DNA of 36,253 nt from a virus. The stretch lies in IMG/VR virus record IMGVR_UViG_3300027749_000273, positions 1 through 36,253 of that record; one strand, given 5' to 3'. The notes under the pieces were generated by a model that was not told the DNA's origin, made no database searches, and was given only the letters and a program-made list of their open reading frames with translations. Each line of letters opens with the position of its first letter. The stretch's first letter is position 1. Positions 12,107 through 30,846 of this stretch are shown piece by piece. Made by a program: the position numbers and the translations under genes.

Positions 12107-12304
12107 TTACTTTATACGCCAGACTCGTAGCCCTTTAATTGCGTCTTCAATAACAAGTTTCATGACAACCTTAAATCCAAGCCGCTTAACTACGGCTTGG
12201 ATAGTTTTTTTACTTTCGTCTATACGCAAACATGGCACGAAAAACGAACAGCCAACCTTAAACCTACGCCAGTTAACACTATAGTTAACGTCATTGATCT
12301 TCAT
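12107..12304 (-). CDS. Small conserved-looking phage protein at the end of the replication operon
   Basis: 65 aa. The start overlaps the last 14 bp of the primase gene, so translation is probably coupled; no strong Shine-Dalgarno is present. The sequence is basic, with strand-helix-strand character: NWRRFKVGCSFFVPCL, then TIQAVVKRLGFKVVMKLVIE, ending GLRVWRIK. I recall similar small proteins with the same VIEDGxxGLRVWR ending in phages but cannot name a function. Its stop (12107-12109) directly abuts the stop of the convergent giant gene (12104-12106), with no spacer. It contains the hairpin terminator of the opposite strand within its coding sequence. Confidence 0.75.
   Translation of the reverse strand: MKINDVNYSVNWRRFKVGCSFFVPCLRIDESKKTIQAVVKRLGFKVVMKLVIEDAIKGLRVWRIK
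12175..12211 (+). terminator. Rho-independent terminator of the virion operon
   Basis: A perfect 10-bp stem (12175-12184 with 12193-12202, ATCCAAGCCG and its complement) closes an 8-nt loop and is followed by AG and seven T. It lies about 70 bp after the giant gene's stop and works only on the + strand, because the other side lacks a T-run. It sits inside the coding sequence of the opposing 65-aa gene. Confidence 0.88.
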
Positions 12305-15110
12305 CGTCTTCAGTGTCGTCGGCGGTTTTAACGGCTTCGACGTATATATCTGGGTCTATAAATTCGCCTTTAGAGCAATCAAATACAAACGCATCTACGG
12401 GGGGGATGCCGCTAATCTTAGTGCCTTTAGCCATACGCTTTTTAACTGCGCCCCCATAGACGCCTTCGGCGGTAAGAGAGTTAAGTACGTCTTTCAAAGT
12501 AATCTGATGCGCAGAACACCACGTCCTAAACTTTTTAGCAATGATAAACAGCTTCATCGTATCCGGCTCATACCGGATAATAAGTTCCCTTGATGGCTCG
12601 GCTATAGGTAGAAGCTCTACCCCCGTTCGTTTATCCACCTCACCATTTATAACTAAACTATTACTGCGGTGCTCAGCCCAATACTCACCAATAACACTTG
12701 CATGATTAGTAACAGGGGGTTTTATCTCTTCGCGCATCTGGCCAAACTGTTTAAGCACCCACTTCAATACGCGACCGACATCAATATCAATAAGCCCAAG
12801 ACGCTTGGCGAACAAGGCGCCAGCTATATTACAAGCCGCAACACCCGACCAAAAACGTTCTCTATTCGTAAAACCTATTTTTCTATCAATAATTAGTTGG
12901 ATTTCTTTAATCTCTTTGATGCGCTCTTCAAGGTTGTCGACCAAGTCACGTATGTAAATACGACCGGCATGACCATAGTTTGTATATAACTTCGGATATA
13001 TTTCATCTGCTTCCTGTTTAGATAATAGTTTAGTGCTGGGGATATCGTATTCAATTACACGCATTAACTCGCCGTCGGGCGTAGCCTTCAAAGACTTTAG
13101 CTTATCTACTATCGACGCGTTAGAGCTACATAAAAGAATAGTCTGCCACTTAGCAAAGTTTTTGCGTTCAGCGTTTTCGCTAGACTTCATGCGACCGCGC
13201 CCCCTACCCTGAGATACTGCATACGAAAAGTCAGAGCAGTCGTCGGCTTTCATTTTTGTAATTTCGTCGCAACCCAAACCCATGTTGTTCATAACACCAA
13301 GTCGATGCAAACGAACAGCCATAGTATCCCGCTCAATCAGCATAATTTCTTCTGGGTGCCCAAACACGCTGTGCATTGCCTTAATTGCCGTAGTCTTACC
13401 CGTGCCAGACTCGTTGTTAATCATGTTAATGATTGCGCCTTTAAGGTTCAAATGCTTCATTAGTGGCGCGCCAAATGCAGTAAAAAAGCCAAACGCATGC
13501 GGCTCAAAGCCTTCTCGATCGTAGACATTTATCACTGACTTCCACTCTTCCAACGAACCAACAGGCGCAAATTGCGGTGCTAAGTCGTCCGTGTAGCTTG
13601 ATGGTGGGCTATATCTATCACCGTCGGCGCATATCTCTGTATCTCCTATTACAAACGACGCGTTCTTTTCAGTCCAGCCAAATTGCGTTCTCATAATTTC
13701 TGCCCCTTCTTTGCATTGCAACTCCTTTACGGAACGAACGATGTACGCCATGATTGCGTCCATCTGTTTTTTCATACCTATAACACCATACCAAGCAAGC
13801 TTTTCGCGAAGCTTATCTGCTGTCAACAATTCAACTGCTGGCAAGGCGAACTCTTTTACACCGTCCCTTGGTGTGTGCATACGCATCCAAACAACTTCCC
13901 CACGCTGCGGGTCTTTTAACCGCTTGACCACATACAAGTCGTGCTCATAAATCATTACGGCTTCGGGGTCTTCTTCGTCGTCGGCTTTGCGGTAGACGCC
14001 GCCGTTCTTGCCACGAAAATATGGAAACGGGTAATCTGGTATCGTGTACGTAACTGGTTTAGAGGCTTCTGGTGCGGTGTACTCTATGGTGTTAGTCTCT
14101 GATTCAGCGATCTCGGCACCAAGAACAATCGGAGAAGATATCTTCCCCTTGTGTATGCAGTTAGCGCAACCTCCGGGGTTATACGCCTCAAACTTCTCGC
14201 ATGTGTAGGGGCCCTTTATCTTAGCCACTTTCTCTATCGTAGCATCAGGAGAATAATCTGGATGCTGATTTGATATGTCGTGTATGGCAGTGTCGGCGTC
14301 TACACAATACGCGGGGATAGAAAGGGCGGCCCTCCAACGTGGTTCATCTAAAGACGATTGTTCCGCTATAGAGCTAGTTAACTGAAAGCATCCAGTGCCC
14401 TTAGCGTTTTTATCTATGATGGTGCTAAACCTAAACTGTTTGCTACCCATCAGCGCGCGAGTTAAATCGTTTGTATGCGTGGGTATATAAGACGGCGCTT
14501 CTTCAAGTGTGCCAAGCTTACTGTTAAATTCGTCATAGTCCACAGCCTCAGATATAAGAAGCACGCCGACATCTAAAGGCGGATCACCTTTGTAGTTAAA
14601 TGTCTCAGGCATCCGCATAATTGACGCCGCATCAGCAGTTCTAGCGGGGTCGGCTTCAAGCCCATGCTCATTGCACAATGACTTAAGCCGCTTAGCTGTG
14701 TTGAGCCATTTTTGTTTTGATATCTCCGCAGTCAAACCCCAGTACACGTGTACGCCACGCCCCGAATTCACTAGGGTCGGCTTAGGTAGGCTAAGTGTTT
14801 TACAAAACTTCTTTAGCGCGTCTATACCATCGCCTTGAGTGGCGTACGGCTTACCTTCACCGCAATCTATATCAAGCCAAAATGCTTTAATTTCTTTTAC
14901 GTTATCTACTGTCCTAGATTCGCTTGTTTCGTACTTAGCACATGCAAAGTACACGTCATATTGTTTTGCCAACAACGCCTGCGATATCTCTTCAACTTCT
15001 TCTAGACTCCGTGCAAATTCTTGCTTTGGCAGTCCGGTCTTCTTTAGACCCACTACGCAGTACCACCCATTCGGAGACAGTACTGCCGACAACAAATCTG
15101 TTTTTGTCAT
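12291..15110 (-). CDS. Primase-helicase (AEP-type primase fused to DUF927-like helicase)
   Basis: 939 aa from the ATG at 15110, chosen because AAGG lies 5 nt upstream; an in-frame TTG at 15128 is possible but weaker. The N-terminal domain has archaeo-eukaryotic primase signatures: FWLDIDCGEG (metal-binding D80 and D82) and NSGRGVHVYW (catalytic histidine at about 121). A Cys cluster around YTCEKFEAYNPGGCANC suggests a zinc knuckle between the domains. The C-terminal half is a helicase-type ATPase with Walker A ESGTGKTTA (K572) and Walker B GCDEI (D615, E616), then a polar motif (LLCSSNA) typical of sensor 1. It should prime and unwind at the phage fork, with the polymerase, SSB and SNF2 protein encoded just upstream. 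Confidence 0.88.
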   Translation of the reverse strand: MTKTDLLSAVLSPNGWYCVVGLKKTGLPKQEFARSLEEVEEISQALLAKQYDVYFACAKYETSESRTVDNVKEIKAFWLDIDCGEGKPYATQGDGIDALKKFCKTLSLPKPTLVNSGRGVHVYWGLTAEISKQKWLNTAKRLKSLCNEHGLEADPARTADAASIMRMPETFNYKGDPPLDVGVLLISEAVDYDEFNSKLGTLEEAPSYIPTHTNDLTRALMGSKQFRFSTIIDKNAKGTGCFQLTSSIAEQSSLDEPRWRAALSIPAYCVDADTAIHDISNQHPDYSPDATIEKVAKIKGPYTCEKFEAYNPGGCANCIHKGKISSPIVLGAEIAESETNTIEYTAPEASKPVTYTIPDYPFPYFRGKNGGVYRKADDEEDPEAVMIYEHDLYVVKRLKDPQRGEVVWMRMHTPRDGVKEFALPAVELLTADKLREKLAWYGVIGMKKQMDAIMAYIVRSVKELQCKEGAEIMRTQFGWTEKNASFVIGDTEICADGDRYSPPSSYTDDLAPQFAPVGSLEEWKSVINVYDREGFEPHAFGFFTAFGAPLMKHLNLKGAIINMINNESGTGKTTAIKAMHSVFGHPEEIMLIERDTMAVRLHRLGVMNNMGLGCDEITKMKADDCSDFSYAVSQGRGRGRMKSSENAERKNFAKWQTILLCSSNASIVDKLKSLKATPDGELMRVIEYDIPSTKLLSKQEADEIYPKLYTNYGHAGRIYIRDLVDNLEERIKEIKEIQLIIDRKIGFTNRERFWSGVAACNIAGALFAKRLGLIDIDVGRVLKWVLKQFGQMREEIKPPVTNHASVIGEYWAEHRSNSLVINGEVDKRTGVELLPIAEPSRELIIRYEPDTMKLFIIAKKFRTWCSAHQITLKDVLNSLTAEGVYGGAVKKRMAKGTKISGIPPVDAFVFDCSKGEFIDPDIYVEAVKTADDTEDDEDQ

Positions 15111-15126
15111 AGCCGCCTTACACCGC

Positions 15127-15169
15127 AAAAAAGACTGCGTCCAAGAAGCGCGGGTGCCTCAAGGACGCA
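15127..15169 (-). terminator. Attenuator-like hairpin before the primase gene
   Basis: On the - strand, TGCGTCC pairs with GGACGCA (15136-15142 with 15163-15169) around a 20-nt loop, and GTC plus six T follow. It fills the gap between the HTH gene and the primase start, so it could lower primase transcription relative to the upstream genes. The loop is long for a strong terminator. Confidence 0.45.
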
Positions 15170-23677: not shown

Positions 23678-24562
23678 TTAGCAAGTTGTTACTGTCTCTC
23701 CCCCCACTAAGTAGAAGTCTTGCACAGTTACTCCCTTTATCTCGGTATCAAACCTAATGCCTACATGGTCTATCGCTTGCGTAGGGTCTACGATCTTTAG
23801 CATAGTTATCTTCTCCTGATAGTTAGTCGGTAGGTCGTAGGTACTAGTATGTTCTGTTACTTCATTAGTACTAAGGTCTAGCATATGAAGAGTACCATCT
23901 TTCTCTATTCGTATCATGACGCCATACAGATTTTCTGCACTGCTTGCGACATTTCTACAAATGGTCATTGTGTCGCCGATACTCTGCCAGTTATCAGGTA
24001 ACTTCGAGAGAATATCATTCTGCAATGGCATAGCGCCATTACGCGCAACATCAACTATGTACGCTAGCACTTCCTCTTGGCATCTACCTAACGCGCGTTC
24101 GACTTCATACCCAGCGTGCCTTTTAACGCTAGTGATCTCACTAACCATTTCGTCGTAAAACTTTTTAGCCCATTTGTCATTGGGCGTTTTAGTAAACATC
24201 TCTACGCCAAGTTTGATAGCATTCTTTATATGTCGCGTTGACTTAGCGCTGCGGTTACCTCTCCGACTCCGTGCTAGTCTAATACGATCAGACTCGATAG
24301 AATAGATTACAAACTTACCATCTGCATCTTCTTCTTCGTTTACCTCTACGCTACCGACTGGCTCGTATCCGTTGAATACTATCGCCTTGCTAACACCCAT
24401 CTCAATCCTACCCTCTTCGTCGGTTTCGGCGAACCGCCACTTCTTAGAATAGGCTTCGAATGTAAGTGTGGGTATCTTGAGATACAGATCGTTAAGTATC
24501 TGCTCTAGTTTGGGTGCTAGTGGTGATGCCTTGTTTTCAAACTTCTTAAAGTCCATTTGCAT
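23678..24562 (-). CDS. Unknown early protein, last gene of the MoxR operon
   Basis: 294 aa, with AAGGA before ATG. The middle has a basic helix (RIRLARSRRGNRSAKSTRHI) then TPNDKWAKKFYDEMVSEI. The C-terminal third looks beta-rich (YGVMIRIEKDGTLHMLDLS, IRFDTEIKGVTVQDFYLVGG). No family is recognised. Its place 11 bp after the DUF3150-like gene and before the tandem terminators suggests it works with the MoxR-VWA module. Confidence 0.8.
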   Translation of the reverse strand: MQMDFKKFENKASPLAPKLEQILNDLYLKIPTLTFEAYSKKWRFAETDEEGRIEMGVSKAIVFNGYEPVGSVEVNEEEDADGKFVIYSIESDRIRLARSRRGNRSAKSTRHIKNAIKLGVEMFTKTPNDKWAKKFYDEMVSEITSVKRHAGYEVERALGRCQEEVLAYIVDVARNGAMPLQNDILSKLPDNWQSIGDTMTICRNVASSAENLYGVMIRIEKDGTLHMLDLSTNEVTEHTSTYDLPTNYQEKITMLKIVDPTQAIDHVGIRFDTEIKGVTVQDFYLVGGETVTTC

Positions 24563-25446: not shown

Positions 25447-25468
25447 ATCTAGGCTTCCTCAGTTTGTC
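25442..25468 (-). promoter_or_regulatory. Dispersed 27-bp palindrome, copy F
   Basis: GACA-N3-CTAG-N5-CTCA-N3-TGTC in + strand reading; the most diverged copy. It spans the end of the CopG-like gene and the first codons of the DUF3150-like gene. Confidence 0.5.
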
Positions 25469-25637
25469 CGTTGGTGTCGGGCGTTGATTTTTGGGTTTCT
25501 TTGGTTATCAAGTGTTCCACGATTTGCGTTACGCTCGGCTCGAAACCTAGCGTACGCTCTAGTTCACTCTGTAATATCTTTAGTTTCTTTCCTGCATCAG
25601 CACTAATACTGATGCCCAATCGCTTAGGCTTATCCAT
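25449..25637 (-). CDS. CopG/ribbon-helix-helix-like small protein
   Basis: 62 aa, with AAGGAGG before the ATG, the strongest ribosome site in this operon. GISISADAGKKLKILQSELE followed by SVTQIVEHLITK resembles the strand-helix-helix of ribbon-helix-helix regulators; the tail is polar and disordered. It may be a regulator of the early operon, or a small component of the MoxR module. The call is tentative. Confidence 0.6.
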   Translation of the reverse strand: MDKPKRLGISISADAGKKLKILQSELERTLGFEPSVTQIVEHLITKETQKSTPDTNGQTEEA

Positions 25638-25646
25638 ATATCCTCC

Positions 25647-26915
25647 TTACTCTACTAACACACATTTACCGACAGTAGGAACAAAGTCCTTGTTGCCTAT
25701 CACACACCACAAGACTGGCGCGTTGGTCTTAGACCAATCACCACACCCGCCATAAAAATACCCATCTGTGAGCATTACTGTGCATTGCGCATCTATGGCT
25801 TCATCGACCATAAACTTTGGTACACACTCAGGTTGAGTACCGCCCCCTCCCTTCGGTTTAGTTGAATGAATAATGTTTGCTACTTCGCTGTCACGATAAG
25901 TTTCACGGCTTGCTACATGGCTATCCCAATAAAGCAACTCAATACACTCGGGATTAACATCATTTGCAACAGATACGACTTCTGACAAGAATGCGTTTAG
26001 CAACTCGCCTTCTATCGAACCTGACGCATCTGTGCCTATCACGATAGTCTTTGCTTTGTGTGACTCTGCGCTAGGCATGATAATCCCGTTTGCTAAGTAG
26101 CGACGATTTGGTTTGCGCCATGTAGATTGATCGCCACCTCGCGTAGACACCTTGATGAACTCACGCATGGCTTCCTTCCAATCTACTTTGGGGTGTAGAA
26201 GATCACCGATACCGCGAGGGATATTGCCCTTCATCTTCCCTGCTAGGATAGAACCTTCGCGCAAAGCAGAATCGATCTCACGGCTTAGTTCTTCTTTCTC
26301 TTCTTGGGTCATCTCTCTTGCGTTATCCCAGTCATGCTCGTCGAGACATTCTGAGGATTCCTCATTTTGTCCTTGGTCGTGACCGTTTCCGCCCCCTTCA
26401 GAAGTTGTACCGCCGTTGCTTTCCTTACCCTTGCCAGTACCCTTGCGTGGCTTACCGCCTTTCCCTTCCTTCTTAAGAATGTCGTACACTTGCTTGGTAT
26501 CCATCCCACGGAACCGCTCATCTAGGCAACCCATAAGTTCGCCGTCCTGATCTCTTGGCATGGATACATCTTCGCCATATGGGTCGGCGTCTTGTATCTC
26601 CAAGTTAATAACAAAGTCCATAGCGACATTGGTGAGGTGTTGATCTTCTTTTGCCAACGCTTGCCATACCGTCATATGACGATACGCTTTGTGCATTGCT
26701 TCATGCACTATTAAGAAAGCAAGTTGCTTGTCGTTCAACGAATCAACGAACCCTCGCCCATAAGTTACATCTCTGCCGTTGGTGTAAGCAGTATTTATTT
26801 CTTCGTCGACTGTTACTTTGCCTACCATAAACACGCCTGAGAAGAGACAGAATCTCTTGCTCTGCATCAACGACACATGGGCGCGTTGTATCCTTTGCTC
26901 TGCTGTTAATTTCAT
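25647..26915 (-). CDS. VWA-domain protein with N-terminal zincin-like region (DUF2201 type)
   Basis: 422 aa from ATG at 26915 (GGAAG 3-4 nt upstream); an earlier in-frame non-ATG start is unlikely. N-terminal HEAMHKAYRH (H71, E72, H75, H80) is the zincin-like motif of DUF2201 N-terminal regions. A Gly/Asn/Glu-rich linker follows (about residues 150-200). The C-terminal von Willebrand A domain has a metal-ion adhesion site DASGS (D296, S298, S300), later T in GGGTQ, and D in MLTDGYF. VWA proteins of this type pair with MoxR ATPases, here the gene just upstream. Dispersed palindrome copy C lies in the linker-coding part. Confidence 0.85.
   Translation of the reverse strand: MKLTAEQRIQRAHVSLMQSKRFCLFSGVFMVGKVTVDEEINTAYTNGRDVTYGRGFVDSLNDKQLAFLIVHEAMHKAYRHMTVWQALAKEDQHLTNVAMDFVINLEIQDADPYGEDVSMPRDQDGELMGCLDERFRGMDTKQVYDILKKEGKGGKPRKGTGKGKESNGGTTSEGGGNGHDQGQNEESSECLDEHDWDNAREMTQEEKEELSREIDSALREGSILAGKMKGNIPRGIGDLLHPKVDWKEAMREFIKVSTRGGDQSTWRKPNRRYLANGIIMPSAESHKAKTIVIGTDASGSIEGELLNAFLSEVVSVANDVNPECIELLYWDSHVASRETYRDSEVANIIHSTKPKGGGGTQPECVPKFMVDEAIDAQCTVMLTDGYFYGGCGDWSKTNAPVLWCVIGNKDFVPTVGKCVLVE
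26345..26371 (-). promoter_or_regulatory. Dispersed 27-bp palindrome, copy C
   Basis: GACA-N3-TGAG-N5-CTCA-N3-TGTC in + strand reading, half-sites match at 8 of 11 positions. It lies inside the VWA gene where the protein is a low-complexity linker. Confidence 0.65.
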
Positions 26916-26925
26916 ATGCTTCCTT

Positions 26926-28017
26926 TCAGAATAAGTATTGGTTGTCGCGCATCCAAGTAACGAACGCACCGCTCGTCATAAGGATTTGTTTCTTCTCGGG
27001 GTGCTTGCTCGTAGACAAACAGAATACGGATTGAAGTTCTTTCGGTGTACGCTTTAAGTATTCAAACCACTTGCTTATGTTGTTACGATCTATCCGTTGC
27101 ATAGCACCGAATGCCATAATGCTTAGCGCTGCGGGCGAACTCGGTAACTTACAACCTTTTGGATCGTCGATTACTTCTTGCCATGTTGGTAACGAATCAG
27201 CAACTTCTACATACGCAACCATGTCTCGCGCACCGCTCTCACCTATCGTGCCTGACAAACCTGCTATCAAAGCATTACGGCTTATGCGGTTGCGGTTAGC
27301 AATGATGTTGCTCGCTCTCGCCAATGATCGTGGAGACACGAACGATCTCTGTGGAATCTTTGGGTTGAAGATGTATGGGTTGTCGGCTTGGCTCGGGTCT
27401 TTGTATGATGCTAGTGCGTGCGGGTATGCTTTCACCCATGCAACAACCTCGGCTTGGATACCGTGGTTCAAAGCCCATAAGCCCCAAGAGTCGTCGTCAA
27501 CAGTGCCGTCGGCGTTGAACCCTGCGTGTGGTTTCTTAACTGGGTAGATAGTTAGTCGGTTTATCGAATGCGCTTTTAGCATATCGCCTACACCATCAGT
27601 CGCGTTGTTACCAGTTGTCACTACGATACTATCAGGGTGCAAATCAAATCCGCCGATCCGCCTTTCATTAAGTAGTGGGTGCAACATATGTTGTACCGCC
27701 ATGCTCGACGGCTTGGTAAACTCGTCGATGAATACAACCATTGGTTCTTTCTTATGGAAACCCCAATACTCGTTGGGATACAGACTCGTTGTCTTGGTTG
27801 CGTGGTCGGGCATTGGGATACCAATGTCACCTAGTTCTGTGTTAGGCGTATCAATGAATACCCCTTTGTAACCTAGTCTTGCTACGATACTCTCAAACAT
27901 TGCAGTCTTGCCAATTCCAGGTTCGCCCACTAGATGAATAGTGTTCTTGCTACCGAACGAAATGATTGCTTCCTCTGCTTCTTTCAGAGTGACTTCGGTG
28001 TTCATGCGTACTTCCAT
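26926..28017 (-). CDS. MoxR-family AAA+ ATPase
   Basis: 363 aa. Walker A GEPGIGKTA (K37), Walker B VVFIDEF (D98, E99), and sensor 1 VVTTGNNAT (N137-N138) with the MoxR-typical MLHPLLNERR helix before it. Start at 28017 has AAGGAAG upstream; ATG at 28005 with GGAAG is equally possible. MoxR ATPases act with VWA proteins as chaperones that activate or assemble protein complexes; the VWA partner is encoded 10 bp downstream. The phage client is unknown: host enzyme, virion part and replication complex are all possible. Confidence 0.92.
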   Translation of the reverse strand: MEVRMNTEVTLKEAEEAIISFGSKNTIHLVGEPGIGKTAMFESIVARLGYKGVFIDTPNTELGDIGIPMPDHATKTTSLYPNEYWGFHKKEPMVVFIDEFTKPSSMAVQHMLHPLLNERRIGGFDLHPDSIVVTTGNNATDGVGDMLKAHSINRLTIYPVKKPHAGFNADGTVDDDSWGLWALNHGIQAEVVAWVKAYPHALASYKDPSQADNPYIFNPKIPQRSFVSPRSLARASNIIANRNRISRNALIAGLSGTIGESGARDMVAYVEVADSLPTWQEVIDDPKGCKLPSSPAALSIMAFGAMQRIDRNNISKWFEYLKRTPKELQSVFCLSTSKHPEKKQILMTSGAFVTWMRDNQYLF

Positions 28018-30240: not shown

Positions 30241-30269
30241 ATTATATCAGAATAACTATACAAAGTCAA
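30241..30269 (-). promoter_or_regulatory. Consensus early leftward promoter
   Basis: On the - strand: TTGACT (30264-30269), 17-bp spacer, TATAAT (30241-30246) with TGA before it (extended -10). Transcription should start near 30234 and run to the tandem terminators at 23.6 kb. The 5' leader contains a small CTGC-TTTG-GCAG hairpin. Confidence 0.9.
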
Positions 30270-30274
30270 GTGAA

Positions 30275-30660
30275 TGTTCCGTTTTATCGGAGAATGTCGC
30301 GCTAAAAGTAATTGCTAAGTATTACAATGTTCTGTGTTTTTATTAAATTCGAACATTACAAGGAAAAATTCGAACATTATAAGATCGTTGATTTTAAAGG
30401 GTTTTTTCGTTTTCTCTCTCTAAAAAGTAATTATATTATATTATATTGTTCTAAATGTTCTGTTGTTCCGTGTGTTTTAGAGAAACTACACAGTTCCACA
30501 ATCGGGACTTACACTTGCCGAGGAGGTCATGCGATCACAGAATTAGAAAAATGGTTTTTCTCAAAAATGGTCGGAACAATAGAACAATACGGAACATTCC
30601 TTATAAATCAACGACTTACATTGTTCTGTGGTTTTGTATTGTTCTGTGATTTTCAGAACA
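30275..30660. repeat. Dyad-symmetric array of 13 GAACA/TGTTC elements (candidate origin or control region)
   Basis: TGTTC starts at 30275, 30328, 30447, 30456, 30464, 30622 and 30640; GAACA starts at 30351, 30372, 30574, 30582, 30592 and 30656. From 30328 on the order is symmetric: TGTTC, two GAACA, arm, three TGTTC, unique centre (about 30469-30573), three GAACA, arm', two TGTTC, GAACA. The arms are an inverted repeat of about 22 bp with one indel (30378-30400 and 30598-30620, core TCGTTGATTT). The region is AT-rich and no gene is supported. It lies between divergent transcription units, which fits a replication origin with iterons, a partition site or a regulatory switch. Confidence 0.7.
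30345..30383 (+). repeat. Direct repeat with 21-bp period
   Basis: Two 18-bp copies of AAATTCGAACATTAyAAG (30345-30362 and 30366-30383) differing at one base; the period equals two helical turns. Part of the dyad array. Confidence 0.8.
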
Positions 30661-30761
30661 TTAGTCTCCATATTCAAAATTTTTAAACTTAAAACTTAGC
30701 AGTTCGAATCCCTCTCGCGTTGAAATGACCGATCCCTACAAAAAATGTCTTTGAATTACTG

Positions 30762-30788: not shown

Positions 30789-30837
30789 TTTATTAGGGTT
30801 TATCCCTATAAAATAACTAGGATAATATCGGATTTTG

Positions 30838-30846
30838 TGGTATACT
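30838..30846 (+). promoter_or_regulatory. Extended -10 promoter of the rightward gene
   Basis: TGG-TATACT with no good -35. Start would fall near 30853, exactly at the 5' hairpin. A second candidate is TTGTCT (30784-30789), 17 bp, TATAAA (30807-30812), whose -35 overlaps palindrome copy E. Confidence 0.6.

Follow-up and report, generated by a model that had tools for sequence, protein, structure and literature searches.

The closest described relatives of the replication system considered here are those of the staphylococcal SaPI and SCC elements. According to PMC7581432, SaPI Rep recognises the iterons of its origin through the C-terminal domain, apparently as two hexamers, and Cch contains DUF927 and is related to Rep of SaPIBov1. 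The DNA analysed in this work, referred to as the window, is a 36,253-bp IMG/VR virus record. Features typical of SaPI/SCC-type systems were found in it: a helicase of the DUF927/Cch/Rep family, multiple short non-coding repeats, and an A+T-rich melting tract beside the repeats. The repeat region at positions 30275-30660 is very probably the replication origin of a freshwater phage, of the iteron type, assisted by IHF and opened by a self-loading primase-helicase. This assignment draws on computed evidence, namely the array as such and its conservation in relatives, the matches to the IHF consensus, the stability minimum, the modelled helicase fold with its winged helix, and the link to replication genes.

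Within the 386 bp of the region, 13 GAACA/TGTTC pentamers were located (Table 1). Local dinucleotide shuffles of the same 386 bp contained 1.3 pentamers on average and 7 at most (5,000 trials), whole-window shuffles (n = 200) never gave more than 6 per 386 bp, and elsewhere in the window an equal clustering density was reached only by poly-A. An earlier sequence-only reading, which had placed 13 pentamers here in numbers far above chance, was thus correct in both respects, and the spacings of 8-10 and 18-21 bp that it gave within groups agree with the box coordinates. From 30328 onward the 12 boxes point left, right, right, left, left, left and, beyond the centre, right, right, right, left, left, right, a string that mirrors itself. 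The mirror claimed previously therefore held with respect to order and orientation, but not to spacing: the inner triples are centred at approximately 30523 and the outer boxes at approximately 30500, so that the symmetry is inexact in distance. A 22-bp inverted arm had also been reported and is present (30385-30406 versus 30593-30614, 17 of 22 bp complementary), although its identity as an IHF site had been missed. Finally, the statement that no gene is supported at the array was in line with a comparison of ten relatives, in which a 124-aa TTG-start frame running across the array had no counterpart, arguing against a conserved gene there. No Rfam RNA or tRNA was found, and a DNA-level search with the array region in named phages gave no match.

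Table 1. Features of the predicted origin region and of the proposed box reader (columns: feature, position in the window, strand, remarks; numbers in the feature column are pentamer starts).
Putative sigma-70-like promoter, leftward, TTGACT-17-TATAAT	30241..30269	-	11/12 consensus matches, TG before -10; would serve the early/replication operon; located immediately beyond the array's left end
Site 1, GAACA box, outermost left (30275)	30275..30279	-	not in the mirror set
Site 2, GAACA box, outer left (30328)	30328..30332	-	
Sites 3 and 4, GAACA boxes (30351, 30372)	30351..30376	+	in 18-bp direct repeat TTCGAACATTA(C/T)AAG, 21 bp apart
Left arm, degenerate IHF-like site	30380..30406	-	ATCAA, 5-base spacer, TTA
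Predicted DNA unwinding element	30410..30459	.	overlaps left triple; nearest-neighbour stability
Left inner triple (30447, 30456, 30464)	30447..30468	-	spacings 9 and 8 bp
Conserved centre TTACACTTGC	30509..30518	+	consensus TTGCACTTGC
Right inner triple (30574, 30582, 30592)	30574..30596	+	spacings 8 and 10 bp
Right arm, strict IHF consensus AATCAACGACTTA	30606..30618	+	flanked by boxes pointing toward it
Outer right boxes (30622 -, 30640 -, 30656 +)	30622..30660	.	
Right-hand element CTCTCGCGTTGAAATGACCGATCCC	30712..30736	+	related sequences right of many arrays
Possible extended -10 of a rightward promoter, TGTGGTATACT	30836..30846	+	suggested by the sequence; not found by the promoter scan
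945-aa primase-helicase, proposed box reader	12291..15128	-	Pfam, AlphaFold, Foldseek

Approximately 160 loci of relatives were collected in scans with the large terminase, a MoxR-type ATPase and a 214-aa protein. In many relatives a dense array is present at the equivalent place; in the larger genomes checked, it separates the early gene set from the divergently oriented structural one. Removal of near-duplicates left 71 non-redundant arrays of the same design, with the words GAACA (27 arrays), RTAACA (38), TATTAGAA (4) and TATAAGAA (2). The full site words differ by group (GAACATT, RTAACATT, TATTAGAA or TATAAGAA) and the layout is kept. The alignment of related phages, which had been proposed as a check, thus showed the design to be conserved in 71 arrays, but the exact mirror only in the closest group, where L089 and L092 carry the identical 12-box string. 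Distant relatives retain the paired inner sets (the left set pointing left, the right set pointing right), the IHF sites and the easy-melting tract, and lack the mirrored outer boxes. The box consensus of the GAACA group is approximately YVGAACAWTR, and neighbours of the same direction are mostly 8-10 bp apart. Relatives whose MoxR is 45-48% identical have boxes of the type GTAACATT/ATAACATT. In L115 and L116 the boxes are ATAACA, yet the MoxR proteins group with those of GAACA phages, and in L108 two site words are mixed in one array. When changes of the site word were counted on trees of MoxR, VWA, TerS and TerL, each tree gave two, so that the trees did not discriminate.

Judged by their sequence, the inverted arms are IHF consensus sites, at which IHF would bind. 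In the 71 arrays the consensus WATCARNNNNTTR was matched 102 times compared to 5.3 times in dinucleotide shuffles; 65 of the 71 arrays contain at least one match, and the four N positions vary freely among relatives. The window has the strict site in the right arm, in the conserved position, and the degenerate one in the left arm, while several relatives (L084, L097, L106, L117) have a strict consensus at the left side. The centre element TTGCACTTGC, allowing up to two mismatches, was found in 54 of 71 arrays versus 12.5 in mononucleotide shuffles, and is conserved whatever site word the group uses; it would perhaps fit a start site for priming. In several phages it is preceded by a C run (CCGCCCCCC). 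To the right of the arrays a conserved string GGGCTACC...GAGAACTGGT, or ACCAGTTC in the opposite orientation, was noticed (in the window at the right-hand element, and in L149, L153 and L159); it occurs twice in TATTAGAA and TATAAGAA phages.

On the basis of nearest-neighbour energies, the predicted unwinding element is the least stable 50-bp stretch of the whole window. Among 16 genomes the genome-wide stability minimum lies inside the array in eight and directly adjoins it in a ninth; none of the 16 has more than three other loci of lower stability than the array tract. GC skew tracks the direction of the genes and therefore gave no separate support for an origin.

The array goes with the replication genes and not with the packaging genes. 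This link follows from two sets of phages. Pseudomonas phage Rollin has the primase-helicase, the polymerase and the SNF2 helicase in common with the window phage, but not TerL and portal, and combines in one non-coding region an IHF site, TATGCAA boxes, of which three form a tandem with 9-bp spacing, and the AT tract that is its genome minimum. The reverse holds for phages HTVC027P, 023Pt_psg01 and DSL-LC04, which have TerL and portal, though not the primase-helicase module, in common with the window phage; in the 50 kb covered of each, a comparable array was not found. Rhizobium phage RHph_TM3_14A shares the replication genes but not TerL and portal; an inverted IHF pair is present in one of its AT-rich non-coding regions, but a clear box array was not found. 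The circular E. coli phage-plasmid pSTEC648_2 encodes a DUF927 helicase of 28% identity. One of its non-coding stretches brings together tandem CTGTAGCA-type boxes at 10-bp spacing, the IHF arm GTAAGTTATTGATTTATAAG and the least stable 50 bp of the element. Here (L390:32464-35642) the match to the primase-helicase extends past the DUF927 gene into the following one, which may mean that the C-terminal winged helix forms a protein of its own or that the gene is broken in the record. A search for E. coli or phage relatives of the pSTEC648_2 origin found none. With the primase-helicase as query, a search of bacterial genomes gave two metagenome-bin contigs only, neither with a firm host, and in one of these (G054) a clear array was not found.

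Some further observations were made at these loci. Around the Rollin array (L260:1-500) there are several copies of the 25-bp palindrome AAAAGGTAGCAAGTTACTACCTTTT, probably a separate regulator site. The Pelagibacter phage HTVC027P has GCTTG runs every 7 bp upstream of its large terminase gene (L167:16499-17730), which are unrelated to the array. A MoxR-type AAA ATPase, its VWA/metallopeptidase-like partner and a conserved 290-aa protein (25647-28017 in the window) travel with the replication genes. Beside the MoxR/VWA genes, a 294-aa protein (23678-24562 in the window, and in relatives) evolves much faster than its neighbours, with an identity of 58-59% between TATTAGAA and TATAAGAA phages versus approximately 90% for the neighbours.

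The 945-aa primase-helicase is the likely reader of the boxes, by means of a C-terminal winged helix predicted in its structural model. Its helicase region (residues 377-653) matches Pfam DUF927 (E = 2.7e-25), and phmmer aligned the protein with SCCmec Cch (5dgk) at 2.6e-10. AlphaFold predicted with confidence an AEP primase-polymerase fold at approximately residues 1-205 and a winged helix at 851-917 (pLDDT about 90), and was of low confidence in the middle (approximately 560-690). In Foldseek searches with the full model, the best match was Cch 5dgk (5.7e-10), followed by SaPIBov1 Rep 8tch (9e-9) and, for the N-terminus, by AEP primases; the rmsd values of the Cch and Rep alignments are large. 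The C-terminal domain alone again retrieved Cch and SaPIBov1 Rep and then, weakly, winged helices of heat-shock factors. At the first turn of its predicted recognition helix the protein has TLK in GAACA, NYK in RTAACA and SYK in TATTAGAA phages, and DPK in Rollin. This correlation between helix and box parallels the overall phylogeny of the protein and hence does not count as independent proof. The gene (12.3-15.1 kb) lies approximately 15 kb from the array (30.3-30.7 kb) and is similarly distant in the relatives mapped.

The sequence-only reading had named the primase among three suspects for box binding, and the modelled fold and the differing helix favour it. The other two suspects are not supported: groups with other site words yielded no counterpart of the 214-aa protein, and the HTH protein (HTH77), which was not found in Rollin, hardly varies in its recognition helix when the word changes. 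A ribbon-helix-helix-like protein was likewise rejected as box reader, since in the set compared it was found neither outside the GAACA group nor in G006 or Rollin. The 294-aa protein is only 33-34% identical between phages sharing one box and is therefore not tied to the box.

We propose the following sequence of events. The primase-helicase would bind boxes of 9-10 bp with the core GAACA through its C-terminal winged helix. Host IHF would bind the arms and bend the DNA, so that the outer boxes are folded back onto the inner triples. Helicase, perhaps in the form of two hexamers, would then be loaded by the two box sets, with melting of the AT-rich stretch next to the left triple. First primers would be made by the fused primase, and forks would leave, probably in both directions.

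Beside an origin with initiator sites, which is favoured here, a partition site and a regulator switch had been considered before, and both are disfavoured by the present data. In a transcription switch a phage regulator would fill the boxes and IHF would loop the DNA, such that two divergent operons are switched together. The array indeed lies between divergent gene sets, the -35 box of the strong leftward promoter ends 5 bp from site 1, and 8-bp direct repeats suit ribbon-helix-helix proteins, of which a candidate small protein was recognised by eye at 25449-25637. However, that promoter is located outside the array and not covered by boxes. Phages with other words, G006 and Rollin yielded no counterpart of the ribbon-helix-helix-like protein, the recognition helix of the HTH protein (also not found in Rollin) is independent of the site word, and the genome-minimum melting stretch would be left unexplained. 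Taken together, a switch is unlikely. A partition site of the kind known from P1, where parS consists of an IHF site flanked by ParB boxes, is highly improbable: pSTEC648_2 does encode a ParB-like protein, but none of the 20 window proteins scanned matched the ParA or ParB families, and more than ten boxes together with a melting tract are more than such a site needs.

The design also recalls lambda cosB, in which repeats are combined with an IHF site, and a terS-like gene is situated approximately 1.1 kb from the array. That the small terminase subunit, with IHF, recognises the array as a packaging start (pac or cos) is nevertheless very improbable, because phages sharing TerL and portal show no array in the 50 kb covered of each while a phage sharing the replication genes but not TerL and portal has one, and because the contigs of approximately 60 kb end at varied genes, with none of those mapped ending at the array. 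A phage attachment site would combine integrase arm sites with IHF sites; attP typically has arm-type repeats and IHF sites on both sides of a conserved centre, and a tRNA-like string is present at 30699-30724. However, ARAGORN detected no tRNA anywhere in the window, and relatives have not conserved the string. A search directed at tyrosine integrases (PF00589) was negative in 20 relatives, several of them 60-66 kb in size, and positive in 14 of 14 control genomes. An attachment function is barely credible.

For a large set of uncultured phages, with replication so far unstudied, the locus offers a predicted origin together with a predicted domain that would read it. Comparison of the word set GAACATT, RTAACATT, TATTAGAA, TATAAGAA, TATGCAA and CTGTAGCA with the related helicases makes initiator recognition and its change directly testable. 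The chances appear even that freshwater phages of a widespread group share one origin design, consisting of paired iteron sets, IHF sites, a melting tract and a fixed centre, and that several replacements of the iteron word took place in it, each along with the recognition helix of the fused primase-helicase. If so, origin identity would be a changing label, which perhaps serves exclusion of co-infecting phages or escape from satellites that copy origins, and the two-word relative L108 would be an intermediate.

The locus points to initiation of the SaPI/SCC type, known from staphylococcal elements, in phages of approximately 60 kb and with IHF built in. SaPI origins have short iterons, and Rep, a helicase that loads itself, recognises these with its C-terminal domain, apparently as two hexamers (PMC7581432); the same mode is proposed for the present array. 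An AEP primase takes part in both systems, and SaPIBov1 Rep (8tch) is the second-best fold match. Unlike in SaPIs, primase and helicase are one protein here, IHF sites are built in, and the genome is that of a phage of approximately 60 kb and not of a satellite. In addition, SaPI origins lie directly beside rep, whereas the array is approximately 15 kb from the helicase gene; owing to this distance it is classed as working like a SaPI origin and not as a SaPI origin. SCCmec Cch (5dgk), the best fold match, contains DUF927 as does the protein studied here. The putative SCCmec origin has 5-nt AAGTG iterons read by the C-terminal domain of Cch2; as described in the relevant passages of PMC7581432, it differs from the present array in having three iterons only and a separate primase, and IHF sites are not mentioned there.

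The R6K gamma and pSC101 origins resemble the array in their phased iterons, their A+T-rich opening region and the participation of IHF in opening, and at the lambda origin the iterons adjoin an A+T-rich region that opens upon binding of the initiator (PMC5043065). The plasmid initiators are not helicases, and DnaA is also used, a requirement that is not known here; the lambda iterons are 19 bp long and bind dimers of O, which is not a helicase. Phage P4 alpha is a primase-helicase that also reads iterons, those of ori and crr, and a GAACA-like word in the P4 iterons is a possible lead. It differs from the present protein in helicase family, and P4 ori and crr are far apart. The parts as such are not new, since IHF, iterons and an opening region are well known from plasmids (PMC5043065). 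What is regarded as new, within the limited literature covered, is that these parts occur with a primase-helicase fusion of the Cch/Rep type and that the word changes while the plan is conserved.
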